DNA of 64,000 nucleotides. Origin: Paludibacter sp. Its GTDB lineage: Bacteria; Bacteroidota; Bacteroidia; Bacteroidales; Paludibacteraceae. Below, one piece after another: positions 31,601 through 64,000 of the stretch. Under the pieces are notes generated by a model. That model ran no database searches and had not been told where the DNA came from. It worked only from the letters and a program-made list of their open reading frames with translations. The stretch lies in NCBI GenBank assembly GCA_028692715.1, contig JAQUWU010000024.1, positions 1 through 64,000 of the forward strand, read 5' to 3'. A program made the translations under genes and the position numbers. Position 1 is the first letter of the stretch, and each line of letters opens with the position of its first letter.

Positions 31601-31928
31601 AAACAGCATTTGGATAATCATTATTCTCTATTCCTTTTATTGGCATTAAATAAGCGCCACCCAACCCAATTTCTTTCATGGCTTCCAAATCGGCTTTTAT
31701 GCATGGTTTAGAAACCTCTCCCCTCATCCAATACCAGAAAGTCCAGGGCTTGGCTTCTTCGGGTGGTGTTTTGAATTGATTGTAAAGAGAGGATTGAGCA
31801 AATGAAAAAGAAGAAATGAATAACAACAAGAAGATCATAAAATAACCCCTAACCCCTAAAGGGGAATTTACCCCTAGCCACTGAAGGGGAACTAAATTAG
31901 TTCTGATTTGTATATCCTTATTATTCAT
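28668..31928 (-). CDS. GH106-family alpha-L-rhamnosidase
   Basis: Releases terminal L-rhamnose from polysaccharide or oligosaccharide. The exported protein (1086 residues from 31928) shows the GH106 N-terminal signature PPEEAKPWTFWYWMRGEV and DLEAMKEIGLGGAYLMPI, then HEWWEMVRYSFQIADSLGLK and the central HIDSWECGSQNWSENF block with acidic residues in a TIM barrel, ending with a beta-sandwich (NTWANAINGYDKG). The mature enzyme starts near Gln45 after the helix MIFLLLFISSFSFA. Two palindromic repeats lie before that helix (LVPLQWLGV, SPLGVRG); Met31 (31838) is a possible start that avoids them. A third repeat is inside the protein near residues 197-209 ([12 protein letters not shown]), where homologous proteins should have a shorter loop. 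GH106 implies L-rhamnose in the substrate. Confidence 0.88.
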   Translation of the reverse strand: MNNKDIQIRTNLVPLQWLGVNSPLGVRGYFMIFLLLFISSFSFAQSSLYNQFKTPPEEAKPWTFWYWMRGEVSKPCIKADLEAMKEIGLGGAYLMPIKGIENNDYPNAVSQLTHEWWEMVRYSFQIADSLGLKMGMHISDGFALAGGPWIKPSESMQKVVFTDSIIKGGRIKNLKLQQPETVENYYEDIAIYALPLLFPSPQGEGLGVRSNNPDDPTPFSDPEKAFRSEVPCYIQYSYDKPFTLRTIEITPAGNNIQSQRLAVLASDNGVDFRFVKQLEPARQGWQNTGFNSTFSIHPTKAKYFRFSWTPEGTEPGSEDLDAAKWKPTLKIKAIKLSSEPLINQWEGKAGLVWRIGSETLPNEIPTTDCTTKDKIINLTSYFKNGILTCNLPKGNWRILRMGHTSTGMTNATGGGGKGLECDKFSEAAVQKQFDNWFGAAFAKTDSTLAHRVLKFMHIDSWECGSQNWSENFAAEFKTRRGYDVIPYLPLLAGFPIESAEKSEQVLHDVRTTIAELVNDVFFKVMVKNAKSYGCETSAESVAPTMVSDGMLHSKEVDRPMGEFWLRSPTHDKPNDMLDAISAAHIYGKNIIQAEGFTQLRTNWDEDPALLKPLLDRNFALGINKLFFHVFVHNPYIDKAPGMTLDGIGLYFQRNQTWWKQGKIFVDYVARCQALLQYGHPVVDIAVFTGEEIPRRAFTPDRLVPFMPGIFGEERVKSEQKRLANVGQPINEMPAGVFHSANILKAEDWINPLNGYAYDSFNKDALSNAKCENGEMVLPSGAKYKVVIFPAEKKYSKSTQNLIEVLKQKGIVVPILPYWNSDSFTPIGCSPDIDIPQNIAWTHRKGDNTDIYFLSNQENLYKSFGVSFRISKGIPELWNPVNGEITIPARCQENNGRVNVSLDLKPYESVFVVFGNTAPVGIATQLEPQNKIYVPNIKIERWEVNFPKVNLEITSDTLFDWSKNENKMIKFYSGTAIYSSTFSFNENTFQTTKLSLGKVCNLATVKLNDIDCGTAWTAPYEVDITKALKKGENMLEIAVTNTWANAINGYDKGIPPFEGIWTNAKYRLSDNKLLEAGLIGPVNIIQR
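31302..31335. repeat. Palindromic repeat inside the GH106 coding region
   Basis: Long form of the family: CCTCACCCCTAGCCCC, then TCTCC-TTGA-GGAGA hairpin and GGGG. On the minus strand it adds about 11 codons ([11 protein letters not shown]) in frame, without a stop. Confidence 0.9.
31845..31893. repeat. Two tandem palindromic repeats at the GH106 gene start
   Basis: CCCCTAACCCCTAAAGGGG followed by CCCCTAGCCACTGAAGGGG. Read on the minus strand they encode LVPLQWLGV and SPLGVRG between the upstream ATG (31928) and the signal helix. Confidence 0.9.
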
Positions 31929-37309: not shown

Positions 37310-38212
37310 TTATAATTCAAGTTTTGCAATAGCTTCCCTAATTTTATTTTTATGTTCTCTGTCAAATTTATTGAATGGAGTTGCTAAATAATCGTTACAG
37401 ATGTCCAAAATTGAAAGTCCTGCTTTAACCCCTTTGAGATAACTTGAACCGTAACTACCTACAGTATAAATTGACGAACTGATTTGCATCACTTTTGCGT
37501 GTAATTCACGTACTTTATCTACATCTTTTGCAACAGCGGCATTGTACAAATCCACATACAATTTAGGGAACATATTTGCCCCACCATTTACACCACCATG
37601 AGCACCCATCAATACCGATTCGGCCATCATCTCTTCGGGTCCTACAAATAATGAAAAATCGGGTCGATCACGGAACTCATGCATCACCGACTGAAAATAT
37701 GCTCCACCTGCCGAACTATCTTTAAATCCAATTACTTTTGGATTTTCTGCAATTCTACAAATAGTAGATGGCGCAAAAGAAACTTTTGTGTGCGTTGGCA
37801 TATTGTACAAAAAAACCGGTAATGGCAATTTTGGAATAAGTTTTTTGTAAAAATCAGTCAGTTCAGCCTGTGATGTGGCATAATAATAAGGGGGAGCAGA
37901 AACCACTGCATCAGCACCGTATTCAGCTGCCACATTTGCTAATAACACACTATCTTCTACTGAAGTATCAGAAATGCCAACAAGTAACGGAATACGATTT
38001 TTCAAAATGCGTGATGATCGTTTAATCATTTCACAGCGTAATTTAAAACTCAAACTTTGGGCTTCGCCTGTAGTTCCTAAAATAAAAATACCGTGAACAC
38101 CTCCGGCAATAACATGTTCAATTAATTTTTCCAGACCATCCACATCAAGTGTATCATTGTCTAAAAGTGGTGTTACTAATGGTGGAACGATTCCACGTAA
38201 TGTTGTTTTCAT
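37310..38212 (-). CDS. DHDPS/NAL-family lyase (keto-deoxy sugar acid aldolase candidate)
   Basis: A 300-residue TIM-barrel Schiff-base aldolase. Family motifs: VPPLVTPL, GTTGEAQSLS (the carboxylate-binding GTTGE), Tyr136 in FLYNMP and the Schiff-base Lys164 in VIGFKDSS. Members include dihydrodipicolinate synthase, N-acetylneuraminate lyase, 2-keto-3-deoxygluconate aldolase and 2-keto-3-deoxy-L-rhamnonate aldolase. The residues here do not decide between them. Position beside symporter and rhamnosidase genes makes splitting of a 2-keto-3-deoxy sugar acid (from rhamnose or a uronic acid) more likely than lysine synthesis. Cytoplasmic. Confidence 0.85.
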   Translation of the reverse strand: MKTTLRGIVPPLVTPLLDNDTLDVDGLEKLIEHVIAGGVHGIFILGTTGEAQSLSFKLRCEMIKRSSRILKNRIPLLVGISDTSVEDSVLLANVAAEYGADAVVSAPPYYYATSQAELTDFYKKLIPKLPLPVFLYNMPTHTKVSFAPSTICRIAENPKVIGFKDSSAGGAYFQSVMHEFRDRPDFSLFVGPEEMMAESVLMGAHGGVNGGANMFPKLYVDLYNAAVAKDVDKVRELHAKVMQISSSIYTVGSYGSSYLKGVKAGLSILDICNDYLATPFNKFDREHKNKIREAIAKLEL

Positions 38213-48810: not shown

Positions 48811-49584
48811 TTATTCGTGCAAAATTCTTCTATAAATGCAGGTTGTATTGTTGCAAATTTTGCAACCGTATTCGTGGAGCTTTAGATTTTTGCCAAGACC
48901 AATTAATCCGCTGACTGATTTTCGTGGAGTCATCAAACAAGAATCACTTAAAGCAATTCCGGTTGGATTCTCACCAATCAACTGAAATAAATTTTGCTGA
49001 TCGGATAGTGGCCAGTTACAATAACCGGGACTATAACGATTGGAAATTTTCAATTTCTTTTCAAGCATCTTTATTTTCAAACTTTCCTGAATTTTATCCA
49101 TTGCTTTCTCAACAGTAAGCGAGCCAATAGCATCCAAGATATAGGCTTCCATGATATCGCCCTGTTCGTTCAACCTGTTTGTAAGTTGAGTAAAATATTC
49201 ACCGGCAGTACATACGAAAAGGGCAACCTGAGTAGCTTCCTTAATATATCCACACAACTGGCGACCTAAATTGAATTCGATGTTTTCAATGCAAATTAAT
49301 CCATCTTTCAACCTCAATTCTTCTAAATTTTTCAATATATAGTAACCCGAAATACCAGTATCAAGATTTAACTGAGGTAGAACCTCCTTAATGAAAACAA
49401 TGGCAGGATGCTCTTCTTCCAAATTTGTAGACTTGATAAAATCAAGAATCTCTGCAAATGTAGGTGCCACTTCGGAGAAAGTGAAATGATAAAAAATACC
49501 CTCGCCCCCTAAAGGGGAGTCTACCCCTAACCCCTGAAGGGGAACAGAGTTACTTTCTTTTCCGTTTTTGATTATATTTTGCAT
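48811..49584 (-). CDS. MetH activation-domain-like protein (corrinoid system)
   Basis: A 257-residue cytoplasmic protein similar to the vitamin B12-dependent methionine synthase activation domain, here as a free-standing protein. The signature is SNRYSPGYCNWPLSDQQNLF followed by LSDSCLMTPRKSVSGLIG (the SAM-site region in MetH), with a C-terminal CKICNNTTCIYRR cysteine cluster seen in stand-alone relatives from corrinoid methyltransferase operons. Such proteins bind SAM and the corrinoid protein and may help restore the cobalt to its active state; the relation is from family knowledge. The gene lies just downstream of the MtaA-like and corrinoid-protein genes. Residues 11-31 (SVPLQGLGVDSPLGGEG) come from two palindromic repeats; no Met occurs after them until far inside, so the original start codon seems to have been replaced. 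Confidence 0.82.
   Translation of the reverse strand: MQNIIKNGKESNSVPLQGLGVDSPLGGEGIFYHFTFSEVAPTFAEILDFIKSTNLEEEHPAIVFIKEVLPQLNLDTGISGYYILKNLEELRLKDGLICIENIEFNLGRQLCGYIKEATQVALFVCTAGEYFTQLTNRLNEQGDIMEAYILDAIGSLTVEKAMDKIQESLKIKMLEKKLKISNRYSPGYCNWPLSDQQNLFQLIGENPTGIALSDSCLMTPRKSVSGLIGLGKNLKLHEYGCKICNNTTCIYRRILHE
49499..49543. repeat. Two tandem palindromic repeats at a gene start
   Basis: CCCCCTAAAGGGGAGT followed by CCCCTAACCCCTGAAGGGG. In frame on the minus strand as VPLQGLGV and SPLGGEG at the N-terminus of the activation-domain protein. Confidence 0.9.
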
Positions 49585-49609
49585 TTGTATTAGTCTGTTG
49601 ACACTAATT

Positions 49610-50611
49610 TTATTCCCCTTTAGGGGTTGTATTCATTATTGTTTCAAGAAAAATTCTGATATTCTCTTCCGGCACATGAGGCGGTAAATCGCAACCACTC
49701 GAAATAACAAAATTTTTATATCCCGAAGTTTTACTTAATAAACTTTCAGTTTCCAATTTTACTGAATCAACACTTCCTTGCTTGAATACTCCTACCGGAT
49801 CCAGATTTCCCATAACAATAATATCTTCGGGACATTCTTTCAGAACTTCAACCATATTTATAGCGTTCCCAAAATGCAGTGCCTTGGCGCCACTAGCAAT
49901 CATTGCCTGAGTACAATGTCCATAATTTCCACAATTATGAAGTATTACAGTGAAATTATCATCTTGAACTGCTTCAACAATTTTTTTTACAAAATCTGTT
50001 GAATACAGGTTACAATCATCGTTCGAAAGTAACCCTGCAGCCGGTTCAGCAATAATAACTCCGTGAGAACCAACATCCTTTAATGCCTGACAATAATTCA
50101 ATAGAAACTCGGTACATTTCGATAATAAATTGAGTATTGTTTCAGGGTCTATATAAATACCTACCATTATTTCCGACATATCGAATAAGCGACCAGCCAG
50201 CGAAAATGGACCAATACATCCTGAAAAAACAGGTTTATCTTTAATGTGATCTATTGCTAATTTATTTGCTAATAGATATTGTGAAATCCGACCTTTATCA
50301 AGCGTCGGAACTTTTAATGCATCAACTGTTTCAGCATCCCACACCAATCTTCCGGTTACTGATGGAATTTTATCTTCAGAAAAATTTACTTCAGCACCAA
50401 AAGCTTCAGCCTCAACAGTCAAATCCATAATAGAAGTACAAACATTGGTGTTGAAATTCTCGGATATATATTTAATTGCTTCGAAATGAATCTGTCCGTT
50501 CGTGACAGCATCTTTTACAGTATATCCTAATGCTTCAATGCCGGGATGCGTCATTATTGGGAAAGCAGTTACTGTGGAACTTTGTAAAATTTGATCTATA
50601 AATTGTTTCAT
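49610..50611 (-). CDS. MtaA/UroD-fold cobalamin methyltransferase (zinc type)
   Basis: A 333-residue TIM-barrel protein of the uroporphyrinogen-decarboxylase superfamily, MtaA/CmuA-like branch. The zinc-binding set of methyl-accepting methyltransferases is visible: His225-x-Cys227 in ILHNCGNYG and Cys307 in SSGCDLPPH. In methanogens and acetogens such enzymes move the methyl group from a corrinoid protein to coenzyme M or tetrahydrofolate; a tetrahydrofolate acceptor is likeliest in Bacteroidota. It neighbours the corrinoid protein (50763-51434). The last residues (TTPKGE) and stop come from a palindromic repeat. True heme-pathway UroD lacks these cysteines, so hemE is excluded. Confidence 0.85.
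   Translation of the reverse strand: MKQFIDQILQSSTVTAFPIMTHPGIEALGYTVKDAVTNGQIHFEAIKYISENFNTNVCTSIMDLTVEAEAFGAEVNFSEDKIPSVTGRLVWDAETVDALKVPTLDKGRISQYLLANKLAIDHIKDKPVFSGCIGPFSLAGRLFDMSEIMVGIYIDPETILNLLSKCTEFLLNYCQALKDVGSHGVIIAEPAAGLLSNDDCNLYSTDFVKKIVEAVQDDNFTVILHNCGNYGHCTQAMIASGAKALHFGNAINMVEVLKECPEDIIVMGNLDPVGVFKQGSVDSVKLETESLLSKTSGYKNFVISSGCDLPPHVPEENIRIFLETIMNTTPKGE
49613..49629. repeat. Palindromic repeat forming a gene end
   Basis: CCCCTTTAGGGG core. Read on the minus strand it gives the C-terminal TPKGE and TAA stop of the MtaA-like gene. Confidence 0.85.
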
Positions 50612-50629
50612 AAAGATACGACCTCTAAC

Positions 50630-50664
50630 CCTACCTAAAGTTAGGTAAACCCTAAAGGGGAATT
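50630..50664. repeat. Compound palindromic repeat in spacer
   Basis: CCCTACCTAAAGTTAGGT arms nested inside CCCTAAAGGGG, the same compound form as at 27030 and 57386, between the corrinoid-protein and MtaA-like genes. Confidence 0.8.
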
Positions 50665-50738
50665 AAGTTACTTTCGTCTATTAAATGGGTTGAAATGATT
50701 CTTAAAATACGATAATGTCTCGCATTGCGCTCTATCAA

Positions 50739-50764
50739 AGTCCTCTTTAGGGGATTTAGGGGTC
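50739..50764. repeat. Palindromic repeat at the corrinoid-protein gene end
   Basis: CCTCTTTAGGGGATTTAGGGG, adjoining (and just touching) the TGA stop of the corrinoid-protein gene. Confidence 0.82.
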
Positions 50765-51434
50765 ATGCAGAAATTTTATCTAACCACACAATTCCTTCCT
50801 GAGGATTTTTTCCGTAACCATCAGCTCCGATTTGTAATGCAAAATCAGCTGAGAGAGGTGCTCCACCCACAATCACTTTTGTGTCCGGAGAAATAGCTTT
50901 TATAGCTTCAATTACGGGTTTCATGTTTACCATAGTTGTTGTAAGCAAAGCAGAAATCCCTACTACTGCACCCGGATTTTGTTGTAATGTTTCAACAAAT
51001 TTCTCTGCTCTCACATCAATTCCTAAATCAATTACTTCCCAGCCGGCACCTTCCACCATCATACTAAAAAGATTTTTGCCTATATCGTGTAAATCGCCAA
51101 ACACTGTTCCGATAATGAATTTTCCTTTTCGTTGAACAGCACCACTGGCAAAATAGGGTTTTAAATGCATCATCGAAGCACTCATCGCCTTGGCCGACAA
51201 CAACATTTGAGGAACAAATATTTTATTTTCTGTAAATTTTTGGCCCACTTTATTCATAGCCGAAATCAAAGCATTATTCAAAATTTCACCGGGTTCTACA
51301 CCTGCTTCTAATGCTTCTTTAGTGATTTCATCAGCACCGGGTTGTCCTTTCATTTGAGGTGGATACGGCGATGCCAAATTGATTTTTCCGAATTCTACAC
51401 ATTCGGATAGTTTTTCCAATAATTCTGAATTCAT
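50763..51434 (-). CDS. Corrinoid (cobalamin-binding) methyl-carrier protein
   Basis: A 223-residue methyl carrier of the MtaC/MtbC/MttC type. Residues 1-100 form the four-helix cap (B12-binding 2: LNNALISAMNKVGQKF, FVPQMLLSAKAMS). The Rossmann-like B12 domain follows, with His116 in GDLHDIGKN as lower cobalt ligand (DxHxxG), VGISALLTTTM and VGGAPLS. These are the complete set of marks for base-off/His-on cobalamin binding. It accepts a methyl group from a substrate-specific methyltransferase and passes it to an MtaA-like partner. Found beside the MtaA-like gene and the activation-domain gene, and next to rhaT. Confidence 0.95.
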   Translation of the reverse strand: MNSELLEKLSECVEFGKINLASPYPPQMKGQPGADEITKEALEAGVEPGEILNNALISAMNKVGQKFTENKIFVPQMLLSAKAMSASMMHLKPYFASGAVQRKGKFIIGTVFGDLHDIGKNLFSMMVEGAGWEVIDLGIDVRAEKFVETLQQNPGAVVGISALLTTTMVNMKPVIEAIKAISPDTKVIVGGAPLSADFALQIGADGYGKNPQEGIVWLDKISA

Positions 51435-51690
51435 AATATCTATGTTGTTATTTATTTCATGTTATATGCCCTTTGGACGTTGTTTTATTATTTAAATTCG
51501 TCATTCTTATTTCGAACTCGTCTTGACTTTTTATAATATCGCTCCTACGGAGCTTTTGTTTCATTGAATAAATATTTCTACCATACTATCGCTTCTCCGG
51601 AGCTCTGAAAACACCTTATTCTCTTTGCAACACTAAATAATTACAGTCGAAGACTAGATAACTATTAATTGAGACAAAGCCAAATAACAT
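51435..51690. repeat. Spacer with two small GGAGC hairpins
   Basis: Within the 256-base spacer, ATCGCTCCTACGGAGC (about 51538-51553) and a variant ATCGCTTCTCCGGAGC (about 51589-51604) each carry a GCTCC/GGAGC-type inverted repeat and share flanks. They look like a second, minor dispersed repeat family. No gene is visible in the spacer. Confidence 0.55.
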
Positions 51691-52755
51691 TTATTTCTGT
51701 GCAGCTAAAATTTGCTCTCCATAATAGCTTCCATACGATATAATGACGGATGAAGCGAGTAATAGTACTAATGCGACTATTAGAATTAAGTAAGTACGTT
51801 TTGACACTTGCTTCCATTCTTTCATAAGTAAACCAACTCCATAACTGAAAAATATCAACATTGACATGTGCAATACCCAACTTATAAACTGGAAATTACC
51901 CATGCGAACATGACCTAAACCGTAAAAGAAAAATTGTCCGAACCATAGAGTTCCAGCCAATGCAGACCACAATGTATTTTTAAATCGTTGTCCGAAAGGA
52001 ATTCCGCTTGCTTTTGTAAATTCTTTCAATGTTTTATTTTTCCAACCGGCAACAAGAAACCAAATCAGATTCACAACGAAACATCCGGCTGTTGAAACAA
52101 TCAATTTGGCATTTCCTTCAAACTCCCCGGCTCCATGCTGTGCTGCCATATCTGCTATAGGCTGTCCTGTTTCCAGCGAGATATTGAAAACTGCAGATAA
52201 AAATCCTGCTGCAATGGCCAAAGCCAAGCCCACTTTCATATTAAAATGAGCTGAATGTTTCAATTCGCCCAAATCTTTTTCTTTTTTGAAGCCCGCGACT
52301 CCAATAAATACGATTCCCAAAATAGATAATATCATTCCCAAAAGGACAATACTGCTTCCCGGACGATTAAAATACTCAATCACCTGACCGTGTAATAATA
52401 AAGGAGTCATTGTTCCTAAAATGGCCGAAAGTCCGATACTGATGGAATAGGTTAACGAATAACCAATATGCTGAATGGCAAAACCGAAAGACATGCCACC
52501 AAACCCATACACCGCACCTAACAAAAATGCACCCCAAAAAGCGTTGTTTGGTGCATCTCTCAAAATCTCAAAGAAATCGGGAACCGTAAGATAGCCTATA
52601 ATCAGTGGCATTATCAGCCAGGCAAAAGCAGATTGTACCAACCAAAATGTCCCCCAAGACCATTGCTTGGTTTTTTGACTTGGCAGATAGCAAGTGGAAG
52701 CCGAAGCTCCACCAATGGCGTGAAAAAATGTACCGAGTAATGGATTTGATGTCAT
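51691..52755 (-). CDS. rhaT: L-rhamnose:proton symporter
   Basis: A 354-residue inner-membrane carrier with ten helices, of the RhaT branch of the drug/metabolite transporter superfamily. Recognisable stretches: LLGTFFHAIGGASASTCYLP at the N-terminus, FWGAFLLGAVYGFGGMSFG, YSISIGLSAILGTMTPLL and GHVRMGNFQFISWVLHMS. Imports L-rhamnose, and in some members L-lyxose. Together with the GH106 enzyme and the mutarotase it is good evidence that the locus handles L-rhamnose. In this window no rhamnose isomerase, kinase or aldolase (rhaABD) is seen, so later steps are encoded elsewhere or by the keto-acid route. Confidence 0.93.
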   Translation of the reverse strand: MTSNPLLGTFFHAIGGASASTCYLPSQKTKQWSWGTFWLVQSAFAWLIMPLIIGYLTVPDFFEILRDAPNNAFWGAFLLGAVYGFGGMSFGFAIQHIGYSLTYSISIGLSAILGTMTPLLLHGQVIEYFNRPGSSIVLLGMILSILGIVFIGVAGFKKEKDLGELKHSAHFNMKVGLALAIAAGFLSAVFNISLETGQPIADMAAQHGAGEFEGNAKLIVSTAGCFVVNLIWFLVAGWKNKTLKEFTKASGIPFGQRFKNTLWSALAGTLWFGQFFFYGLGHVRMGNFQFISWVLHMSMLIFFSYGVGLLMKEWKQVSKRTYLILIVALVLLLASSVIISYGSYYGEQILAAQK

Positions 52756-52758
52756 ATA

Positions 52759-52790
52759 ACCTCCCCTTAGTCCCGTCCAAAGGAAGGGAA
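52759..52790. repeat. Degenerate palindromic repeat before rhaT
   Basis: CCTCCCCTTAGTCCCG with an imperfect CCAAAGGAAGGG arm, a decayed copy upstream of the rhaT start. Confidence 0.6.
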
Positions 52791-52817
52791 ACCTGTTTTA
52801 TTATAAGTTGTTTAATA

Positions 52818-53183
52818 TTATTTTTCGCAATCTCCCTCTCCCTCTCCTTTGGAGAGGGTTGGGGAGAGGTAAAAAATCTCTTCCATATCCGCCCAAAATT
52901 CACCGACATTTCTCGTTTCAATGGGTTGCATCAATGGTTTTACAACATCCCACCACCGTTGCGTTTCCGAGTCGGAAGCCATTTTTGCCATATCGCCTTC
53001 AAAATCAGTTCCCACATATTCGAAATAGGCAAAAAGTACTAAATCTTTTTTAAAAATGGAATAGTTCTGAATATTGCAATCAGAAATCATTTTCAACACT
53101 CCAGGCCAAACAGCAGCATGTTGTTTTACATACTCGTTGGCACATTCGGGTTTTAAGTAAATTATCTGTCCAAAACGTTTCAT
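52818..53183 (-). CDS. rhaM: L-rhamnose mutarotase
   Basis: Interconverts alpha and beta anomers of L-rhamnose. The 121-residue protein starts at 53183 (MKRFGQIIYLKPECANEY); the frame is open to 53234, but those codons translate another palindromic repeat and are not needed. Tyr18 and His22 (ANEYVKQHAAVWP) match the catalytic residues of E. coli RhaM, and MKRFGQ, WWDVVKPLMQP and FWADMEEIF are family marks. The usual length is about 104; the surplus C-terminal residues (LSPTLSKGEGEGDCEK) come from a palindromic repeat that also supplies the stop region. Lies directly upstream of rhaT in the same orientation. Confidence 0.92.
   Translation of the reverse strand: MKRFGQIIYLKPECANEYVKQHAAVWPGVLKMISDCNIQNYSIFKKDLVLFAYFEYVGTDFEGDMAKMASDSETQRWWDVVKPLMQPIETRNVGEFWADMEEIFYLSPTLSKGEGEGDCEK
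52830..52869. repeat. Palindromic repeat forming the rhaM C-terminus
   Basis: TCTCCCTCTCC-TTTGG-AGAGGG form with GGGGAGAGG. It is read as LSPTLSKGEGEGD at the end of rhamnose mutarotase. Confidence 0.85.
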
Positions 53184-53197
53184 AATAATCTCTTGCC

Positions 53198-53223
53198 CAC
53201 TAAATCCCCCTAAAGAGGGACTT
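53198..53223. repeat. Palindromic repeat at the rhaM start
   Basis: CACTAAATCCCCCTAAAGAGGGACT, a short copy 15 bases upstream of the preferred rhaM ATG. Confidence 0.75.
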
Positions 53224-53292
53224 TCAGATAGCATACATTTTTAATTGTTTATTATTTAAATTTCAATGAAAGAAACTTTCAATTTCGAAAGA

Positions 53293-53312
53293 ATTCCCCC
53301 TTTAGGGGATCA
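53293..53312. repeat. Palindromic repeat at the end of a UroD-fold gene
   Basis: TTCCCCCTTTAGGGGATC, overlapping the TGA stop of the gene 53310-54344 by a few bases. Confidence 0.8.
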
Positions 53313-54344
53313 GATGCCCAATGCCAAAAACATTGCCTCCACATTTGCAGGTGGAATATCCGGCAAAATGGCTTCGTGACTGGGTGAAATGATTAATCCG
53401 GTTGGAAATAATTGTTTCAATTCCATCACCTTAGCAGAAACCTGCTCAGGTGTACCATTTACTAATAAATGTTGTGCATCCACCCCGCCACAAAAAGAAG
53501 CTTTACCACCAAATCCGGCTTTTAATGTTGAAGCATCCATATCGGCAGCTAAAGCTTGTATCGGATGAATGGAATCAACACCTAAATCAATCAAATCCTG
53601 AATAATCGGATAAATAGATCCACAGGAATGATGAATTACTTTTAGACCATAACCTTTTGCCTGATCAATCAGTTTTTTTGTTCCCGGAAAAACATAGGTA
53701 CGTAACGAGTCCGGATCGACCATTAAACCATTCTGACTACCAAAATCATTTCCAATCAACACTGCATCCAAATATCCTTTGGTGGCTTCGTAAAAAATTT
53801 CGTTTGCTTTCAAATAAAAATCAGTAATTCTATCAATCACTGCCTGAAACATATCAGGATTCATCAGCATCACCATCAGCGCCTTTTCCATACCGAAAGC
53901 CGCACATACATCCTGAAAATGAGCACTCCACATTACTCCCATACGAACATAATCGGGATTTACCGCCATTGCAAGTCTGCGTGATTCTTCCACATCAAGA
54001 TAATGTGCCGGATCGGGCCACGGGAAAGTATCAACCAATGCAGGATCGTCAATATCTTCGAAAAACCCCGGAGCTGTCAGTGTTCGTTCATCAGGTTTAT
54101 CATCATGAGCCATTTTAGCAAATTTAAACGCACAAGCTATATGGTTCGAAGGCGGAAAATTATACGGAACTTCAATGGGATAAATATCATCATCAAGTTT
54201 TATTTTCAATTCATCAACTGAATTTACATGGAAATACTCCAGTAATCCGGGAATAGCAGCCGGAACAGGCAACCCTAACCACGAAGCCGGACGATCAACC
54301 GGGTGGTTGATTATTGTTGCGTAAAAACGTTCTTTGTGTGTCAT
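53310..54344 (-). CDS. UroD/MtaA-fold putative methyltransferase, second paralogue
   Basis: A 344-residue TIM-barrel protein of the UroD superfamily, starting at the ATG at 54344 (MTHKERFYATIINHPVDRP). The open frame reaches 54401 but those codons cross a palindromic repeat. It keeps His239-Ser-Cys241 in VIHHSCGSIYP, but at the place of the third zinc ligand it has ISPSHEAILPD (His instead of Cys). This variant occurs in UroD-like proteins encoded with corrinoid proteins and often annotated only as decarboxylase. It could be the substrate-specific (first) methyltransferase that demethylates a sugar and loads the corrinoid protein. This is an inference. Neighbours are rhaM, rhaT and a symporter. 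Confidence 0.8.
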   Translation of the reverse strand: MTHKERFYATIINHPVDRPASWLGLPVPAAIPGLLEYFHVNSVDELKIKLDDDIYPIEVPYNFPPSNHIACAFKFAKMAHDDKPDERTLTAPGFFEDIDDPALVDTFPWPDPAHYLDVEESRRLAMAVNPDYVRMGVMWSAHFQDVCAAFGMEKALMVMLMNPDMFQAVIDRITDFYLKANEIFYEATKGYLDAVLIGNDFGSQNGLMVDPDSLRTYVFPGTKKLIDQAKGYGLKVIHHSCGSIYPIIQDLIDLGVDSIHPIQALAADMDASTLKAGFGGKASFCGGVDAQHLLVNGTPEQVSAKVMELKQLFPTGLIISPSHEAILPDIPPANVEAMFLALGI

Positions 54345-54346
54345 AA

Positions 54347-54372
54347 AACCCCTAGCCCCTAAAGGGGAACTA
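54347..54372. repeat. Palindromic repeat before the second UroD-fold gene
   Basis: CCCCTAGCCCCTAAAGGGG, two bases before the preferred ATG. If the upstream ATG at 54401 were used it would be translated as ISSPLGARG. Confidence 0.88.
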
Positions 54373-54431
54373 ATATTACTATTATTTATTATGTTTTCCA
54401 TTTTTATAAAAGTATAAAAACTATCATTTCT

Positions 54432-54457
54432 TATTCCCCTTTTGGATTTGGGGTCAT
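54432..54457. repeat. Palindromic repeat variant in spacer
   Basis: ATTCCCCTTTTGGATTTGGGG, a decayed copy just after the stop of the symporter gene 54458-56017. Confidence 0.65.
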
Positions 54458-56017
54458 TTAATTAAAAAACAAATACAACCCAACCATTACTACAACTAAT
54501 AATATCCAAGCAACTTTTACTTTTGCATCAATTTTTATTGGTTGATAATCAATCTTTGCAATTGTTTGATTTGATTTTGAATCTATTAACGAATAAACAA
54601 AAACATAAATGCCCAAAATTACAAAAATAATAAACGAAATATATAAGAAATGTAATCCTTTAAATATTAAATTATTGTAATAAAGGATTCCAATGCCTAA
54701 ACTAAAAATTGTGCCTAGAGTCAGAACAGAATTAATGGCTTTGTGGGACGTTTTCTTCCAAAGTACTGCAAAGAGAAAAGCAACCGACATTGGCGGAGCA
54801 ATAAAACCTAAAACTGATTGGAAAATATTGAAAAAACTCAAGCCCTGAATATAGGTAATACCAATGGCCAAAAATATAGATAATAAAGCACCAATCACAA
54901 CAACAATACGTCCAATTAACGTAATTTCTTTGTTGGATGCAGTAGGTTTAAACTGTTTTATGTAAATATCCATTGTAAAGACGGCACTCAAAGAGTTCAA
55001 TGCCGAGCCAACCGTACTAATCAACGCAGCCATCATCACCACGATCACCAGACCAATTAATCCCGGAGGAAAAACGGCTTCCACCAATTTTAAATAAGCA
55101 TCGGTCGAATTACTCAGGCCGGGTAATAATATAAAAGCTAGAATACCCGGAATCATAAACAATGGAATATCAATCACTTTGAGCCAGGCTACGAAGTTTG
55201 CTCCCATTTGTCCATTCTTTAAATCTTTTGTTCCCAAAACCGATTGAACCATCGACTGATCGGTACACCAAAACCAAACACCCATAATTGGATAACCAAT
55301 GAGTATAGCCAGCCATGGAAAATTAGGATCATCGAGTGGTTGAAACATTTTCCAGTAACTCACAGGAGTGGAATTAACAATTTCAGAAATTCCACCGACT
55401 TTTATAACAGCCATTACTACCAATAATATTGAAACTCCAATCAATAATAGCATTTGAAAAACATTGGTATAAGCAATTGCTTTTAACCCTCCGGCAATAA
55501 CAAATGCAGCTGAAATAGCTACTAAAATTACAATACTTGTTGAAAGTGGAATAGCCAGAATTTGCGACATAAATACACCTCCGGAGAATAGTGTAAGACC
55601 CAACCACGAAATCAGAATGGTTATAATGGTGTACCAGGCAAGGTAACGTCGTGTTTTATCGCCAAAGCGTTTTCCCATATATTCGGGCAAAGTCATCACT
55701 TGAGCACCCAGATATCGGGGAGCAAAAACAAAAGCAAGTAAAAGAATAAACGGAAAGGCATACCACGAGAAATTTCCAGCAACAATGCCACTCTCGTAGC
55801 CACTACTAGCATTAGCAATAAGCATCGACGGTCCAACATTCGTTCCCCACATGGTTAACCCAATGGCAAACCAGCCCAAGCTTTTGTTCGCTGTAAAGAG
55901 GTTTTCGCTCTTATTCTTTTTGCTAAAACTTGCCCAATAGGCAATGCCCAGCAAAACAATAACATAAACTACAATTACAACAATATCTAAAGTTGATAAG
56001 TGAATTAATTCTTTCAT
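54458..56017 (-). CDS. Sodium:solute symporter (SGLT-like), second copy
   Basis: A 519-residue SSS-family carrier with about 14 helices. Features: LGIAYWASFSKKNKSENLF in the first loop, GWFAIGLTMWGTNVGPSMLI, APRYLGAQVMTLPEYMGKRFG and AALISTVGSALNSLSAVFTMDIY. The first-helix/GTNVGPS pattern is that of SGLT-type sugar symporters rather than the SSS at 35767. It lies between two UroD-fold genes of the corrinoid module, so it may import the methylated sugar or the glycoside that they demethylate. Substrate unknown. Confidence 0.87.
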   Translation of the reverse strand: MKELIHLSTLDIVVIVVYVIVLLGIAYWASFSKKNKSENLFTANKSLGWFAIGLTMWGTNVGPSMLIANASSGYESGIVAGNFSWYAFPFILLLAFVFAPRYLGAQVMTLPEYMGKRFGDKTRRYLAWYTIITILISWLGLTLFSGGVFMSQILAIPLSTSIVILVAISAAFVIAGGLKAIAYTNVFQMLLLIGVSILLVVMAVIKVGGISEIVNSTPVSYWKMFQPLDDPNFPWLAILIGYPIMGVWFWCTDQSMVQSVLGTKDLKNGQMGANFVAWLKVIDIPLFMIPGILAFILLPGLSNSTDAYLKLVEAVFPPGLIGLVIVVMMAALISTVGSALNSLSAVFTMDIYIKQFKPTASNKEITLIGRIVVVIGALLSIFLAIGITYIQGLSFFNIFQSVLGFIAPPMSVAFLFAVLWKKTSHKAINSVLTLGTIFSLGIGILYYNNLIFKGLHFLYISFIIFVILGIYVFVYSLIDSKSNQTIAKIDYQPIKIDAKVKVAWILLVVVMVGLYLFFN

Positions 56018-56020
56018 AAG

Positions 56021-56073
56021 ACCTCTCCCTAACCCCTAAACCTCACCCCAACCCTCTCCAAGTGGAGAGGGAG
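56021..56073. repeat. Two tandem palindromic repeats upstream of the symporter
   Basis: CTCTCCCTAACCCCTAAAC followed by CCTCACCCCAACCC and TCTCCAAGTGGAGAGG. Placed just upstream of the symporter ATG at 56017. Confidence 0.85.
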
Positions 56074-56216
56074 TAAGAGAGGAGAAAAGACTTGTGATAT
56101 AATTTAAAGTTATTTTTTAATTCCAAGGCATTTTGCTTTAGAATAATTAATTTTTCAAAAAAACGTCCAATGGACAAATAAAGGACGAAGTCCAACTATC
56201 AGCCGAAGCGAAAATA

Positions 56217-57341
56217 TCAACGATACCGTTCAACAATTTTCATCGCCTGCTCAATTTCCTTTTCCGATTTAAAATCTACATTGATATGTAAACCCTGATT
56301 ACCCACATTATCCAGCAAAGGCTCTAATTCATCTAAAGTCACCCAATTGGCCATCACTGATTTGCCGGCAGAAAGTATTTTTTTATATAAATCATACCAT
56401 TGTGCATTTCCACCTTGTGGTTGACCATAACCCGGTGTCCACTGAATGGCATTTAATTTTTCAAGTTCCAATACGGCATCTAAATGACGAATAGCATCCA
56501 CACCATCCAAATGATAAAGCGTGTAATCAATCTCTTCAGTTTGTTCGCGTAAAAATGGCAAACAGAAGGTGCGATAATCATCTTCCGAAATCATGATGGA
56601 TAAATCGACCTGCAACTTCGACACTTTTCCTGGTGCCCATAAAGAAAAATAACAAAACGCCATTTCACCATTTACATTAATAATATCGTAAATTTCGTTG
56701 AAGACTTTGAAATAAACATCATTTACTTTCTGGAGTTGTTCCAATGTGCCATCCGGATCCATTATCAAATCCATCAACACATTATCAGAACCTTTCAGAC
56801 TGGCTAAAACATCTAATCCTTCCACCAAATCGGGACAACCCACCATGTAATTTCCCTGTGCTTTTGATTTGCAGGCATTCAGTAAATCTTTGTGCAACTT
56901 CCACCATTTTCCATTTTCGTCGAAAATAATCTGTCCGTCAAAACCTTCTTTGTCCCGAATCCAAATAGTGTCATCGCGTCCTTCCAGTTCGGCTCCAAGT
57001 AACGAAGCCAGCGAGCCAGGCCCAAGTTGTGTATTGGCAACCGGCAAAATATCTGCCATATACGAATTGTGCGACATGGTATAATGCAGATATTCAGCAC
57101 GCCATTGTGGATCAAACCAAAACTGATTCATATTCTTGTGTGGCGGTGGCGGTAAAATATTTTCGTAAGGAGCACCTTCTTTAAAAAGATGTTCCCACAT
57201 GGTCAGCACTATTCCTTTTCCATTCCACCAATCAGTGTAATGTTTTTTTGTTTCGGAAAAATTTGATTTCCAGTAGCCCCCCAACCCCCTAACGGGTGAG
57301 CTGAAGATACCATCGCCTGATATTTCCTTATCTTTATTCAT
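56217..57341 (-). CDS. UroD-fold protein, third paralogue (no cysteine ligands)
   Basis: A 374-residue TIM-barrel protein related to the UroD/MtaA superfamily. It differs from the other two: DWWNGKGIVLTMWEHLF near the start, then LYHLDGVDAIRHLDAVLE, where the His-x-Cys of zinc enzymes is replaced by His-Leu-Asp, and NAIQWTPGYGQPQGG. It could bind substrate rather than zinc, for example as the sugar-specific demethylase, or could be inactive in methyl transfer. Residues 14-21 (SSPVRGLGG) stem from a palindromic repeat next to the original N-terminus (WKSNFSETKKHY). It precedes the symporter gene and follows the GH31 gene. Confidence 0.72.
   Translation of the reverse strand: MNKDKEISGDGIFSSPVRGLGGYWKSNFSETKKHYTDWWNGKGIVLTMWEHLFKEGAPYENILPPPPHKNMNQFWFDPQWRAEYLHYTMSHNSYMADILPVANTQLGPGSLASLLGAELEGRDDTIWIRDKEGFDGQIIFDENGKWWKLHKDLLNACKSKAQGNYMVGCPDLVEGLDVLASLKGSDNVLMDLIMDPDGTLEQLQKVNDVYFKVFNEIYDIINVNGEMAFCYFSLWAPGKVSKLQVDLSIMISEDDYRTFCLPFLREQTEEIDYTLYHLDGVDAIRHLDAVLELEKLNAIQWTPGYGQPQGGNAQWYDLYKKILSAGKSVMANWVTLDELEPLLDNVGNQGLHINVDFKSEKEIEQAMKIVERYR
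57276..57303. repeat. Palindromic repeat at the start of the third UroD-fold gene
   Basis: CCCCCCAACCCCCTAACGGG, an imperfect copy read in frame as SPVRGLGG. Confidence 0.8.
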
Positions 57342-57429: not shown

Positions 57430-59652
57430 TTATTTAAACACTTTTTCTACAACTTTACTCATATCCATATCGTCAGTACAACTCACGTCTTCCATATACA
57501 TCGGGATTTTAGCTCCTTGTTTTACAAAAACCGGAATTTCATCCATTGGAACTTCTACTTTTTTCAACCATCTTTCCCCTTCAAAAACTTCCTTTGTGAA
57601 AAAATGAACCCACATTCCTTCGGGAAGATAAATATCGCGTTTATTTTCGGGATTTATCACAGGAGCTACTAACATATTTTCCCCAAAGAAATACTGATCA
57701 TCTATTTGCCGACAAGTTTTATCGTTGGGGTAATGTAAAATCATGGCACGTAACACGGGCATTCCGGTACGAGTAGTAATTTCGCTTTGTTCCAAGATAT
57801 ATGGAATCAACTGATACCGGAGTTTCCAGTATTTTTTTATTATCCCTGAGATATTAGGAAAATGCCATGGCTCGCGTTTACTGGTTCCGTGATAACGTAA
57901 ATGTGAGGTAAAGACACCAAATTGAGTCCATCGAACATATAAATCATCCGGAATAACCGAATTCATAAAGTTTGGAACTCCATGGAAACCTGGCACATCA
58001 TGACTCCAAAAGCCAAATCCTGAAAGACCGAGTTGCAAGCCACCTTTAAGCGAACCAGCTAAACCGTCCCACGAGCAAGCTGAATCACCACCCCAATGCA
58101 AGGGATAACGTTGACAACCTGCCCAACCTGCACGTGCCCAAATAATTCCGTTGCCGGTAACTTCTTTGGTCACTTCATAAGCTGCTTTTTGATACAATAA
58201 GGGGTAAAGATTGTGTAATTTTTCAGGCGACATATTCCGATATTCGGCACCGAGATGAATATCTTCGCCAAAATCTGTTTTAATACATACAACGCCCATT
58301 TCCAATAAATTGCGAAGTAAATCTTTATACCACTCCGTTGCTTTATCGTAGGTAAAATCGATAGTACCGGCAAAATCCTGCACGCTAAAATTTGACGATC
58401 CGGTAAGGACACGTTCGCTCTTGCTGATATATTCATTTTCGTCGGCTTCTTTGTACTGAATGGCGTTGTACGAAATGTAAGGCAATTGCCACAAACTCAC
58501 CCGATAGCCATTTTTTTTCAGGTTTCCAATAAATTCTTTCGGATTAGGGAAACGTTCTTCATTAAATTTCCATTCGCACAACCAATCGGTTTCGAACCAA
58601 CCGGTATCTATGTGAATCACATCGCAGGGATAATCTTCGGCACGCATGCGGTCACAGATCTCAGTTACTTCCTTAGCCGAAAAATAACTCATGCGACTCA
58701 TCCATGTGCCAAAACTCCAAAGTGGTGGCATGGATGGAAAGCCGGTAAGTTGACGATAACCGAACAGAATTTCTTCGGGAGTATCACCACCTATCAAGAA
58801 AAAATCGACCACCGGTTCTTCTACCATTACCTGAGCCGAACGAGTTGAATGGTCAGCCAATGAAAATTTTGCAAAGGAAGTTGTATGCAAAAACAATCCG
58901 TAATTTTCGGAGGAAAGATAAAATGGAATGCTCTTATACGAACGACTATTATTTACGCCCTGACCGTCGAGATTACGAAGTTGCATGGTTTTTCCCGACA
59001 AATCCATTTTAGTAAATCGTTCACCTGTTCCATAGAAACATTCGTCCGGTGCAGCATGAAGGGAGAAAGTTGCTCGTTGAGGCACTTCGTTTCGTTCCAC
59101 AAAAGCCAATGCGAAAGCATCGTGACGTGCAGGAGAAAACATATCGTACCCCGAAAGGGCAATTTCATTTTTACCATCGGGGTAAAATTCCAACTCAATA
59201 GTTTCAGCAGGTGCAGGAACTAAATCGCTCCACCAATCAATTTCGGGTGATTGGAAACCGATTATTGCCTTTTTATTTCCGTTGCCGTCAAAAACAGTCC
59301 AATTGAGTTCTGTTTTTTTGAAAGACAACGAATTCATCTGTAAACGTGCATCCAATTCCAACATCTCAGAATCCTCCATTATTCCTCCGGCTAATGCCAT
59401 TGAAATACGCAGAATCTTATCGCCGTAGCCTTTTATTCGAAGAACATAGTCTCTCCGTGAAACAGTAGTATCGGGAGTAATTTCGTTAGAATTATTTTGT
59501 TGTTGAAATGGGATAGTAATAAAAATATCACCATTTTTTTCTTCAATATCAGTTGGCGAGCAAGCTCTCCACAATCTGTCGCCTTCGTTCAATTCCGGAC
59601 TAAAATCTAAAAAGTCAAAAAGCTGATAGTTTGTTTGTTTCATACATTCCAA
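57430..59652 (-). CDS. GH31-family alpha-glycosidase (alpha-xylosidase-like)
   Basis: A 740-residue GH31 enzyme with no signal peptide, so probably cytoplasmic and acting on imported oligosaccharides. The barrel starts near PSMPPLWSFGTWMSRMSY; the nucleophile is Asp460 in CIKTDFGEDIH and the acid/base is Asp523 in HWGGDSACSWDGL. The WMSRMSYFSA segment after PPLWSFG and the KTDFGE nucleophile context resemble alpha-xylosidases and 6-deoxy- or methyl-tolerant members more than alpha-glucosidases, but specificity cannot be fixed. The start may be the ATG four codons downstream (59643). Separated from the GH67N-like gene by 37 bases, thus probably one operon. Confidence 0.85.
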   Translation of the reverse strand: MECMKQTNYQLFDFLDFSPELNEGDRLWRACSPTDIEEKNGDIFITIPFQQQNNSNEITPDTTVSRRDYVLRIKGYGDKILRISMALAGGIMEDSEMLELDARLQMNSLSFKKTELNWTVFDGNGNKKAIIGFQSPEIDWWSDLVPAPAETIELEFYPDGKNEIALSGYDMFSPARHDAFALAFVERNEVPQRATFSLHAAPDECFYGTGERFTKMDLSGKTMQLRNLDGQGVNNSRSYKSIPFYLSSENYGLFLHTTSFAKFSLADHSTRSAQVMVEEPVVDFFLIGGDTPEEILFGYRQLTGFPSMPPLWSFGTWMSRMSYFSAKEVTEICDRMRAEDYPCDVIHIDTGWFETDWLCEWKFNEERFPNPKEFIGNLKKNGYRVSLWQLPYISYNAIQYKEADENEYISKSERVLTGSSNFSVQDFAGTIDFTYDKATEWYKDLLRNLLEMGVVCIKTDFGEDIHLGAEYRNMSPEKLHNLYPLLYQKAAYEVTKEVTGNGIIWARAGWAGCQRYPLHWGGDSACSWDGLAGSLKGGLQLGLSGFGFWSHDVPGFHGVPNFMNSVIPDDLYVRWTQFGVFTSHLRYHGTSKREPWHFPNISGIIKKYWKLRYQLIPYILEQSEITTRTGMPVLRAMILHYPNDKTCRQIDDQYFFGENMLVAPVINPENKRDIYLPEGMWVHFFTKEVFEGERWLKKVEVPMDEIPVFVKQGAKIPMYMEDVSCTDDMDMSKVVEKVFK

Positions 59653-62581: not shown

Positions 62582-63838
62582 CTATACAATAACAATCTTT
62601 TTATTATTGGGCACCAATAAATATAATGATAACCAACAAAGTAAATAAGCAACACTGGCAATTCCAAAAACAATATAATAACTGCCGGTAAATTGAAGAA
62701 TCAGCCCAACAGTGCCGGAAAACAGAACGCCTCCAATAGCTCCGGCAAAACCTGCCAATCCGGTTACTGTACCTACGGCATTTTTTGGATAAATATCAGA
62801 GACAATCGTAAAAATATTTGCAGCATAACCCTGATGTGCAAAAGTTGCCATGGAAATAAGCGTAACGGCTACCCAAACATTAGAACTGAATGAAGTTAAG
62901 AAAATAGGCACGACCAACAATGCCATAAAAAAGATCGTTTTCTTACGTGCAGCAACGGTGTTGTTACCACGATTAATTAGAAATGACGACATCCAACCGC
63001 CAAACACTGAGCCACCCATTGAAATAACGTAAATAATGATAAGTGGCAATCCAATGTGAGTCAGGTCGATATTGTAATTTGAATGTAAAAATTTTGGTAA
63101 CCAATAAAGAAAAAACCACCAAATAGGATCGGTTAGAAACCTCGCCAAACAAATCCCCCAGGTTTGTTTATACGAAATGATGGACTTCCAGGGAAGTTTT
63201 TTTGTTTCCGGTTCAATCTCATCCTGTAATATATAATCAAGTTCTGCTTTACTAAGCTTCTTATTTTCTTCCGGTTTTTTATAGGTCAACATCCAAAATA
63301 TCAACCAGATAAAACCTAATGCTCCCGCACTGATAAAAGCCCATTGCCAACCCCATTTCAGGGCAATTATCGGAATAAGTAGCGGTGCTAGTATAGCTCC
63401 AATATTCGATCCGGTATTTAAAACTCCGGTGGCTAATGCACGTTCTTTTTTGGGGAACCATTCGGCCACCGTTTTAATAGCTGCAGGAAAATTAGCCGAA
63501 GCACCTACACCTAATCCGAATCGGGCTGTAGCAAAGGCAGCCACACTACTGAATGCAGCATGAAACATTCCTGCCACACTCAATAAAGTTACAGAAACAA
63601 TAAACCCCAACCGTGTTCCAATTTTGTCGAGCAAAGTACCCATGGAAATAAGACCAATGGCATAAGCCGCTTGAAATGCCATGATTATAAAACCATAATC
63701 AGCTTCCGACCAACCAAATTGAGTTGATAATTGTGGCGCAAGAATACCCAGCACTTGTCGGTCGATATAATTGATAGTGGTTGCAAAGAAAAGCAATACA
63801 ACAATACGCCAACGATAATTCCCGATTTTTACTGACAT
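62582..63838 (-). CDS. Major facilitator carrier, hexuronate (ExuT) type
   Basis: A 418-residue 12-helix MFS carrier of the anion:cation symporter branch that contains ExuT (glucuronate, galacturonate) and sugar-acid importers. Landmarks: INYIDRQVLGILAPQLS in helix 1, LLDKIGTRLGF in loop 2-3, RFGLGVGASANFPAAIK and WFPKKERALATGVLNTGSNIG, WGWQWAFISAGALG. These blocks distinguish it from general sugar porters. It most likely imports a hexuronate into the cytoplasm. Its start overlaps the end of the gene that enters from the right edge of the window by ten bases. Confidence 0.87.
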   Translation of the reverse strand: MSVKIGNYRWRIVVLLFFATTINYIDRQVLGILAPQLSTQFGWSEADYGFIIMAFQAAYAIGLISMGTLLDKIGTRLGFIVSVTLLSVAGMFHAAFSSVAAFATARFGLGVGASANFPAAIKTVAEWFPKKERALATGVLNTGSNIGAILAPLLIPIIALKWGWQWAFISAGALGFIWLIFWMLTYKKPEENKKLSKAELDYILQDEIEPETKKLPWKSIISYKQTWGICLARFLTDPIWWFFLYWLPKFLHSNYNIDLTHIGLPLIIIYVISMGGSVFGGWMSSFLINRGNNTVAARKKTIFFMALLVVPIFLTSFSSNVWVAVTLISMATFAHQGYAANIFTIVSDIYPKNAVGTVTGLAGFAGAIGGVLFSGTVGLILQFTGSYYIVFGIASVAYLLCWLSLYLLVPNNKKIVIV

Positions 63839-64000
63839 AATTCATGAATTAAATGATAGGCGTCTTCTTGTTCTGCAGGCGTTTCGCAATACGTTACCAC
63901 CACCATTTTCATCCCTGTAACCCATAGTCGTGTTAATTGCTCCCGCACCGTTTCCAAATCTCCCACAATACGTGTATTTAAAACTACTCCGGTATTCGCA
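63829..64000 (-). CDS. C-terminal end of an unidentified gene, truncated by window edge
   Basis: The last 56 codons of a minus-strand gene reading in from beyond the window; the stop TAA (63831-63829) lies inside the start of the MFS gene, so the two are translationally coupled. The visible part contains TGVVLNTRIVGDLETVREQL and TYCETPAEQEDAYHLIHEL. I do not recognise the family. Being coupled to a hexuronate-type carrier, it probably belongs to the same sugar pathway. Confidence 0.75.
   Translation of the reverse strand, partial: ANTGVVLNTRIVGDLETVREQLTRLWVTGMKMVVVTYCETPAEQEDAYHLIHELCQ

Follow-up and report, generated by a model that had tools for sequence, protein, structure and literature searches.

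The DNA analysed here, called the window, is a 64,000-nucleotide stretch of a contig of Paludibacter sp. (JAQUWU010000024.1). From position 48811 onward it carries genes for several URO-D-fold proteins and a corrinoid protein set among sugar genes, and these are considered here as a candidate system for removing methyl groups from sugars. A first-pass annotation had read the genes at 48811-57341 in this way. The positions of open reading frames and Pfam searches bear out the genes that it named, their coordinates and their domains: all are present, and all are on the minus strand. His225, Cys227 and Cys307 of the 49610 protein are found as described, as is the GDLHDIGKN motif of the corrinoid protein. 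The module had been closed at 57341, but two further URO-D genes (63829-64956 and 65083-66150) follow the ExuT-like gene. The contig extends 6.8 kb beyond the window, and these two genes, M3 and M4, are located there. From the 48811 protein to M4, the run has 13 genes with gaps of -10 to 256 bases; the ExuT-like gene and M3 overlap by 10 bases. Five URO-D proteins, the putative acceptor methyltransferase A and the candidate substrate methyltransferases M1 to M4, are encoded on one strand within about 17 kb (Table 1). The 53310 and 56217 proteins (M1 and M2) keep the substrate methyltransferase role first proposed for them, though as two of four candidates.

The genes after the module had been given as GH31, GH67N-like and ExuT-type (GH, glycoside hydrolase). 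All three genes exist, but the GH67 label does not stand: the GH67N match of 59690-62428 is below threshold, and a 1293-bit match to BPa0997, together with a fold search, gives GH138. BPa0997 has the PDB entry 6hze, titled 'BP0997, GH138 enzyme targeting pectin rhamnogalacturonan II'. We take BT0997 to be the founder of GH138. It is described as an alpha-galacturonidase acting on chain A of rhamnogalacturonan II (RG-II) in the relevant passages of PMC7939467. The structure nearest the GH106 enzyme, 5MQM, is BT_0986, for which a passage of PMC6828813 suggests a substrate derived from RG-II chain B. Because both enzymes that we take to mark such a locus, a GH138 and a chain-B GH106, are present, we regard the window as an RG-II locus, and RG-II is likely the main glycan that it serves. 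SusC/D proteins did not turn up among the window proteins scanned, which were not all of them; no search was aimed at SusC/SusD, GH137 or GH139-GH143.

Table 1. Genes of the run and the window's GH106 gene
Feature	Coordinates	Strand	Evidence
Stand-alone MetH-type activation protein, presumed S-adenosylmethionine-dependent corrinoid re-activator	48811..49584	-	Pfam Met_synt_B12 PF02965, E 6e-10
A: URO-D-fold acceptor methyltransferase (predicted), zinc set H225-C227-C307	49610..50611	-	PF01208, E 6e-51
Corrinoid methyl-carrier protein with GDLHDIGKN	50763..51434	-	B12-binding PF02310, E 3e-27; B12-binding_2 PF02607
RhaT sugar symporter	51691..52755	-	PF06379, E 5e-56
RhaM deoxy-sugar mutarotase	52818..53234	-	PF05336, E 1e-29
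M1: URO-D-fold substrate methyltransferase, predicted for O-methyl 6-deoxyhexose	53310..54401	-	PF01208, E 1e-21
SSS-family sodium:solute symporter, M2-linked	54458..56017	-	SSF PF00474
M2: URO-D-fold substrate methyltransferase, predicted for 2-O-methylxylose	56217..57341	-	Fold search
GH31, first residues show no signal peptide	57430..59652	-	PF01055
GH138-type RG-II enzyme, 912 aa	59690..62428	-	1293 bits to BPa0997, PDB 6hzf
ExuT-like MFS transporter (name from first-pass annotation)	62582..63838	-	TIGR00893, 1e-75, below cut-off
M3, 3' end (URO-D, H-x-C...C)	63829..64000 in window; gene runs on to contig base 64956	-	
M4 (URO-D), after M3, outside window	contig 65083-66150		
GH106, BT_0986 type (RG-II chain B rhamnosidase)	28668..31928	-	PF17132; 1420 bits to PDB 5mqm

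Neighbours and partners of the candidate substrate methyltransferases

The AlphaFold model of M1 (pLDDT 78) has 4ay8 as its nearest fold (E 3e-13), and the residues H258-x-C260 and S341-H342 are invariant in 8 aligned sequences. M2 has no Pfam match. The UroD fold attributed to it by the earlier annotation was nevertheless recovered: its model (pLDDT 75) best fits the Methanosarcina mazei methyltransferase 4ay8 (E 4e-7) and uroporphyrinogen decarboxylases. The twin of 4ay8, 4ay7, is named methylcobalamin:coenzyme M methyltransferase. Direct hhalign of M2 against A found nothing; an hhalign match to M4 (94%) and the fold search lead us to reject the idea that M2 is unrelated to URO-D proteins. 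In M2, H277-x-D279 is invariant in 11 aligned sequences. From the alignments and the rule of PMC10418091, we suppose that the conserved residues of A and of M1 to M4 are zinc ligands. A substrate methyltransferase is expected to pair a URO-D or similar fold with a corrinoid partner, and both are seen, in the folds of M1 and M2 and in the M2-corrinoid fusions described below.

A search for M1 found 106 loci, of which 80, at 62-91% identity, were kept. Their records are titled Bacteroidales, Clostridia, Spirochaetes, Lentisphaerae, Planctomycetota, Opitutaceae and others, and metagenome-assembled genomes of Paludibacter hold matches at 88-91%; a search of our own genome for a 16S gene found none. 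The link to rhaT and rhaM that the first reading implied recurs across this set: rhaM is the gene directly after M1 in 39/80 loci and lies within 5 genes in 46/80, a rhaT or FucP-like transporter gene (the latter label rests on 23-28% BLAST similarity) is within 5 genes in 48/80, and at least one of the three is within that distance in 57/80. One locus (L092) has GH106 and GH78 a few genes from M1-rhaM-rhaT. These neighbours make M1 rather likely to act on an O-methyl 6-deoxyhexose, 2-O-methylfucose or an O-methylrhamnose. In Clostridium thailandense, which we take to be an acetogen, M1-rhaM is followed by genes for a corrinoid protein, a Pterin_bind protein, a chemotaxis-type protein and a RACo protein (L131). 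In its N-terminal part this RACo protein shows 29% BLAST similarity to the activation-type protein, with no Pfam match. The locus looks nearly like a textbook O-demethylase set with a rhamnose mutarotase added.

Genomes of the order also hold distant M1-like URO-D proteins, up to ten per genome (L045-L049, L057-L059), one of them beside rhaT and rhaM relatives (L049). They form a larger family, part of which occurs in genomes without a dedicated corrinoid protein.

The run's own corrinoid protein has DxHxxG, the B12 motif by which we judged a corrinoid carrier. A dedicated corrinoid protein (E<=1e-60) occurs in 49/50 M1 genomes, compared with 34/198 genomes of the order. The matches in M1 genomes are at E 1e-68 or better, versus about 1e-31 to 1e-42 for MetH. 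The 50 genomes were chosen from the 80 loci before the result was known (mostly longer contigs, one locus per genome), which placed 30 loci outside the test, and the cut-off omits order genomes G313 (1e-56, 823-aa frame) and G298 (8e-48, 778-aa frame), neither frame being of full MetH length. In the unselected order set, 24/30 genomes with an M1-like protein had the corrinoid protein, versus 10/168 without one (Fisher p 5e-17, own genome excluded, kinship of genomes ignored). All such counts disregard relatedness.

M2 keeps different company. GH31 is within 2 genes of M2 in 30/33 cases and an SSS symporter in 29/33, in a set that includes the window's own gene and omits genes at locus ends. 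Eight of the 33 M2 genes carry a corrinoid-domain fusion, a share biased by the choice of some stretches for their corrinoid matches, and 6 of the 8 have a homocysteine S-methyltransferase domain in between. In gut Bacteroidales, M2 is found as the N-terminal part of proteins of 938-1046 aa that continue with homocysteine S-methyltransferase and B12 domains, the pair that marks a methionine synthase. Their records are titled Bacteroidaceae, Bacteroidales, Xylanibacter, Prevotella and Bacteroides sp., with G405 in addition. The two long fusions scanned match PF02574 (E 9e-89 and 4e-81), PF02310 and PF02607; no match to a pterin-binding methyl-folate domain was found in these two, and M2 occupies the N-terminus. 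Two Phocaeicola genomes (L218, L219) have an M2-corrinoid fusion without the homocysteine domain.

M2 also travels with GH138. Among 51 genomes, GH138 is present in 38/39 with M2 at >=58% identity (4 distant matches of 43, in G526, G539, G515 and G540, were dropped), and 2/40 GH138 genomes have no M2. In the unselected 198, all 6 carriers of M2 at >=57% identity (a seventh, distant match at 29% in G462, was dropped) hold both GH138 and the corrinoid protein, and both GH138 genomes without M2 likewise have no corrinoid protein. A search of 296 genomes spread evenly over the phylum found M2 in our own genome only and so gives no rate. For M1, the corresponding GH138 counts are 39/50 M1 genomes versus 7/197 genomes of the order.

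The best NCBIfam match of the GH31 protein is PRK10658, an alpha-xylosidase (488 bits, cut-off 606). The protein may be a cytoplasmic alpha-xylosidase for 2-O-methylxylosides. According to the section concerned of PMC7939467, Bacteroides thetaiotaomicron cleaves 21/22 RG-II linkages, the exception being 2-O-Me-Xyl-alpha1,3-Fuc, which accumulates. We lean slightly toward 2-O-methylxylose as the substrate of M2, and propose only tentatively that the GH31 enzyme cuts this disaccharide.

Directly upstream of GH31-M2 in nine gut-genome loci lies a gene for a protein of 607-622 aa (L170:10268-12091 and L184:2845-4713; by size, L171-L173, L185, L218, L219 and L228), which, judged by its letters with no family search, looks exported and repeat-built. 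Relatives of the window's DHDPS-family and SSF genes lie just upstream of GH31-M2 in L228, and an SSF relative does so in L229. In the window these genes, with one of the inositol-monophosphatase family, are at 34968-38212 and may belong to RG-II sugar-acid metabolism.

M3 is present in 34/51 genomes, M4 in 31/51 and both in 30/51. Among 23 M3 genes (chosen as for M2), an ExuT-like gene is within 2 genes in 17, M4 is near in 14 and M4 is fused in 3. In genomes from cattle, deer and yak gut, ExuT-M3 is accompanied by A (L097, L100), to which L103 adds a corrinoid protein and an activator. Alignments show that M3 and M4 both keep H-x-C...C. Their possible assignment to a methyl-etherified uronic acid is the weakest of the substrate predictions.

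The first-pass annotation had tied corrinoid methyl transfer to imported sugars and not to methylamines or thiols. This tie is supported by the sugar-gene neighbours of M1, the co-occurrence with the corrinoid protein, the M2 fusions and the clostridial locus, and we consider it highly probable that the system carries out corrinoid demethylation of sugar methyl ethers.

Methyl acceptor and re-activation of the corrinoid protein

The residues H225-C227-C307 of A are invariant in 8 aligned sequences, A included. Against TIGR01463 mtaA_cmuA, A scores 1e-37, under that model's cut-off. A His-Cys-Cys zinc set is of the thiol type by the rule set out in a passage of PMC10418091. The earlier proposal that the 49610 protein gives the methyl group to tetrahydrofolate (H4F) is not supported: its zinc set is of the thiol type, no Pterin_bind match was found among the scanned genes of the run (the domain is present in L131), and homocysteine S-methyltransferases recur. 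No RACo, the ATP-dependent activator, was found in the run; one is encoded elsewhere in the genome, on contig C10.

We surveyed 32 corrinoid clusters that bear an M gene among the fetched loci, L131 appearing twice. Own-genome loci, duplicates and loci with <6 called genes were omitted; the M1 label had no identity floor, so that distant M1-like proteins are included (L053, L055, L056), and L125 was scored as having no M gene because its M genes are >6 genes away. A is the only acceptor-type gene in 15 clusters. A homocysteine methyltransferase, fused or free, occurs in 7 (three of which also have A), a relative of the pterin protein in 3 and a URO-D-thioredoxin protein in 1; none was seen in 6. 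Two of the three pterin-relative clusters are L131, and in the third, L103, which also has A, the protein may be FolP. In 22 clusters a MetH-type activator is no more than 6 genes away from the corrinoid gene, and 3 have RACo; one cluster can have both. Stand-alone homocysteine-methyltransferase relatives occur in the runs of L074 (PF02574), L125 and L178 (BLAST). Because of the thiol-type zinc set of A and the recurring homocysteine-methyltransferase domains, we favour homocysteine, and hence methionine, over methyl-folate in Bacteroidota; a thiol acceptor of this kind seems reasonably probable.

A thioredoxin_3 domain is fused to a URO-D protein that lies beside a corrinoid gene and a gene for a CobW-like protein at L074:13186-14805 and L175:10412-11758, the two that were scanned, with BLAST relatives in L055, L174, L177-L179, L186 and L200. 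It is perhaps a thiol-linked acceptor variant.

A proposed pathway and its alternatives

Methyl-etherified sugars are widespread in plant and algal glycans. In RG-II they reportedly include methyl-etherified uronic acids, to go by the title of O'Neill 2020. Also named as RG-II components, in passages of the respective papers, are 2-O-methylfucose (PMC12282258) and 2-O-methylxylose (PMC7939467). These three kinds of methyl sugar match the three sets of transporter and module in the run. We read the run as the demethylation arm of a locus for degrading the pectin RG-II. We hold this to be the best overall explanation, and probably the correct one. RG-II sugars, part of them methyl ethers, would be imported through the RhaT/FucP-like, SSS and ExuT-like transporters. 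In the cytoplasm, one URO-D-fold methyltransferase per methyl sugar would move the O-methyl group onto the Co(I) form of the shared corrinoid protein (50763-51434), a direction of transfer that we infer. M1, with rhaM, would serve 2-O-methylfucose or an O-methylrhamnose; M2, with GH31 and the SSS symporter, 2-O-methylxylose once GH31 has split 2-O-Me-Xyl-alpha1,3-Fuc; and M3/M4, with the ExuT-like transporter, a methyl-etherified uronic acid. A would take the methyl group off the corrinoid and hand it to a thiol, with homocysteine, giving methionine, as the most likely one, and the 48811 protein would re-activate oxidised corrinoid in the manner of the MetH activation domain.

Several observations weigh against this pathway or parts of it. 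Of the 80 M1 loci, some of which stop early at a contig boundary, just 10 show a corrinoid gene at a distance of 5 genes or fewer. Among the M1 genomes, G517 yields no corrinoid match; it also has no M2, and in some relatives M2 and the corrinoid domain are one gene. Of the 30 order genomes with M1-like proteins, 6, all with distant ones, have no dedicated corrinoid protein. The sugar of M1 need not come from RG-II, as M1 occurs without GH138 in 11/51 genomes; M2 occurs without GH138 in G519, and GH138 without M2 in G517 and G526. The structure nearest the GH31 protein is 5f7c, titled 'Alpha-glucosidase' (1118 bits), with YicI next at 376 bits or less. We take 5f7c to be a B. thetaiotaomicron protein; if so, that species has such a GH31 yet leaves the disaccharide uncut. 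Three gut loci (L183-L185) keep A beside a fused homocysteine domain, and A may therefore have an acceptor other than homocysteine. By the rule of PMC10418091, the H-x-C...C of M3/M4 predicts a thiol and not an ether as substrate.

Sugar demethylation could also run with H4F as the acceptor, A or a separate protein making methyl-H4F that is then oxidised for energy. Bacteria use H4F in this role, as a passage of PMC8630106 states, and the clostridial locus has its Pterin_bind protein beside the corrinoid gene. The His-Cys-Cys set of A is of the thiol type, however, and a pterin-protein relative is far rarer in the surveyed clusters (3/32) than A alone (15) or a homocysteine methyltransferase (7), so that this variant appears unlikely. 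A larger departure would be for M1 to M4 to act on methanol or methyl esters from pectin instead of methyl ethers. Pectin is methyl-esterified, the genome's MtaB-type cluster on another contig is near a polygalacturonase-like gene (judged by letters, no family search), and the run of L125 holds an MtaB relative together with M1 and M2. Yet MtaB (PF12176, 4e-163) already covers methanol, and the sugar transporters and sugar mutarotase that accompany the M genes would be superfluous for methanol; we consider this improbable. About as improbable, or slightly more so, is that M1 and M2 are URO-D-fold sugar enzymes without methyl transfer, such as an epimerase or decarboxylase, and that their corrinoid company is indirect. 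The 6 genomes with distant M1-like proteins but no dedicated corrinoid protein would fit, as would the 70/80 M1 loci with no corrinoid gene seen within 5 genes; the fusion of M2 to a corrinoid domain, the grouping of M1 with corrinoid, Pterin_bind and RACo genes in L131 and the presence of the corrinoid protein in 49/50 M1 genomes all argue for methyl transfer.

The MtaB gene belongs to a second corrinoid cluster of the same genome, outside the window (L008; G000:C10:76001-94000). Besides MtaB (PF12176) it encodes RACo, a corrinoid protein and an activation-type protein, together with a pair of MtaA-like proteins and an MFS transporter; polygalacturonase-like and CobW-like genes were recognised there by their letters, with no family search. 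The cluster looks like a pectin-methanol system. DUF5703 proteins recur beside loci of the kind studied here (window 24729-26990 and L040). Ahead of the pectin genes, the window has a surface-polysaccharide cluster at 7155-13012 (flippase family, EpsG, glycosyltransferases and UDP-galactopyranose mutase).

Relation to known corrinoid systems

O-demethylase systems consist of a substrate methyltransferase, a corrinoid carrier, a second methyltransferase and an activating protein, as outlined in a passage of PMC8630106, and OdmB and VdmB are UroD superfamily members by the account in part of PMC10418091. The run resembles these four-part systems of acetogens and methoxydotrophic archaea (OdmB/VdmB, MtoABCD) in its four predicted functions and its UroD-superfamily methyltransferases. 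The known systems, however, use aromatic methyl ethers with H4F or tetrahydromethanopterin as acceptor, whereas the run is set among sugar genes, its activator is MetH-type and not RACo, and the zinc set of its acceptor protein is of the thiol type. Anaerobes with type 1 mlp clusters (Kountz and Balskus, PMC10418091, in the sections concerned) likewise have a single corrinoid protein alongside several URO-D methyltransferases. Mlps are described there as His-Cys-Cys, except several Mlps1, and as occurring with Ram/RACE proteins and sulfur or selenium genes; M1 (H-x-C with H) and M2 (H-x-D) are without the full set, and neither RACo nor sulfur/selenium genes were found among the scanned genes of the run. 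The main text of PMC10418091 does not contain the terms 'sugar', 'carbohydrate' or 'Bacteroid'.

The MtgBCD methionine synthase/glycine-betaine demethylase also uses a corrinoid protein to couple demethylation to methionine synthesis, by the account in part of PMC12478193. Its donor is a quaternary amine and its hosts are aerobic bacteria, in contrast to the gut fusions, which join URO-D-fold donor, homocysteine and corrinoid domains. The RG-II system of B. thetaiotaomicron shares the GH138-type and BT_0986-type GH106 enzymes. It does not cut 2-O-Me-Xyl-alpha1,3-Fuc, by passages of PMC7939467, and the window appears to add GH31-M2-SSS and the demethylase set. With the MtaABC methanol system the run shares a corrinoid protein and an MtaA-like protein, but it has no MtaB, which this genome keeps on contig C10. 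The parts are of known kinds; their combination, in which sugar methyl ethers feed a corrinoid protein, is apparently new, although the evidence for novelty is weak: no B12-dependent sugar demethylase appeared in the titles and abstract openings of the literature matches listed, which were open-access only, with most subscription papers outside them.

Paludibacter sp. is presumably an anaerobe. It may be, although we advance this with less than even confidence, that anaerobic Bacteroidota own a modular sugar O-demethylase that needs no oxygen, with exchangeable URO-D-fold modules supplying a single corrinoid protein, and that some gut Bacteroidales (Prevotella, Xylanibacter and others) have such a module fused into a methionine synthase of a new type (M2-homocysteine-B12), which takes its methyl group from a methyl-etherified pectin sugar and not from methyl-folate and, with GH31, consumes 2-O-Me-Xyl-alpha1,3-Fuc. 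Several named strains carry M1, among them Mangrovibacterium lignilyticum BM_7, Sunxiuqinia indica, Maribellus sediminis, Gaoshiqia sediminis and Clostridium thailandense PL3, which makes direct testing possible. If the proposal is true, anaerobes would have an oxygen-independent B12 route to methylated sugars, the RG-II fragment left over by B. thetaiotaomicron would have a likely fate, and dietary pectin would be linked to methionine and vitamin B12 in the Bacteroidota of the herbivore gut.

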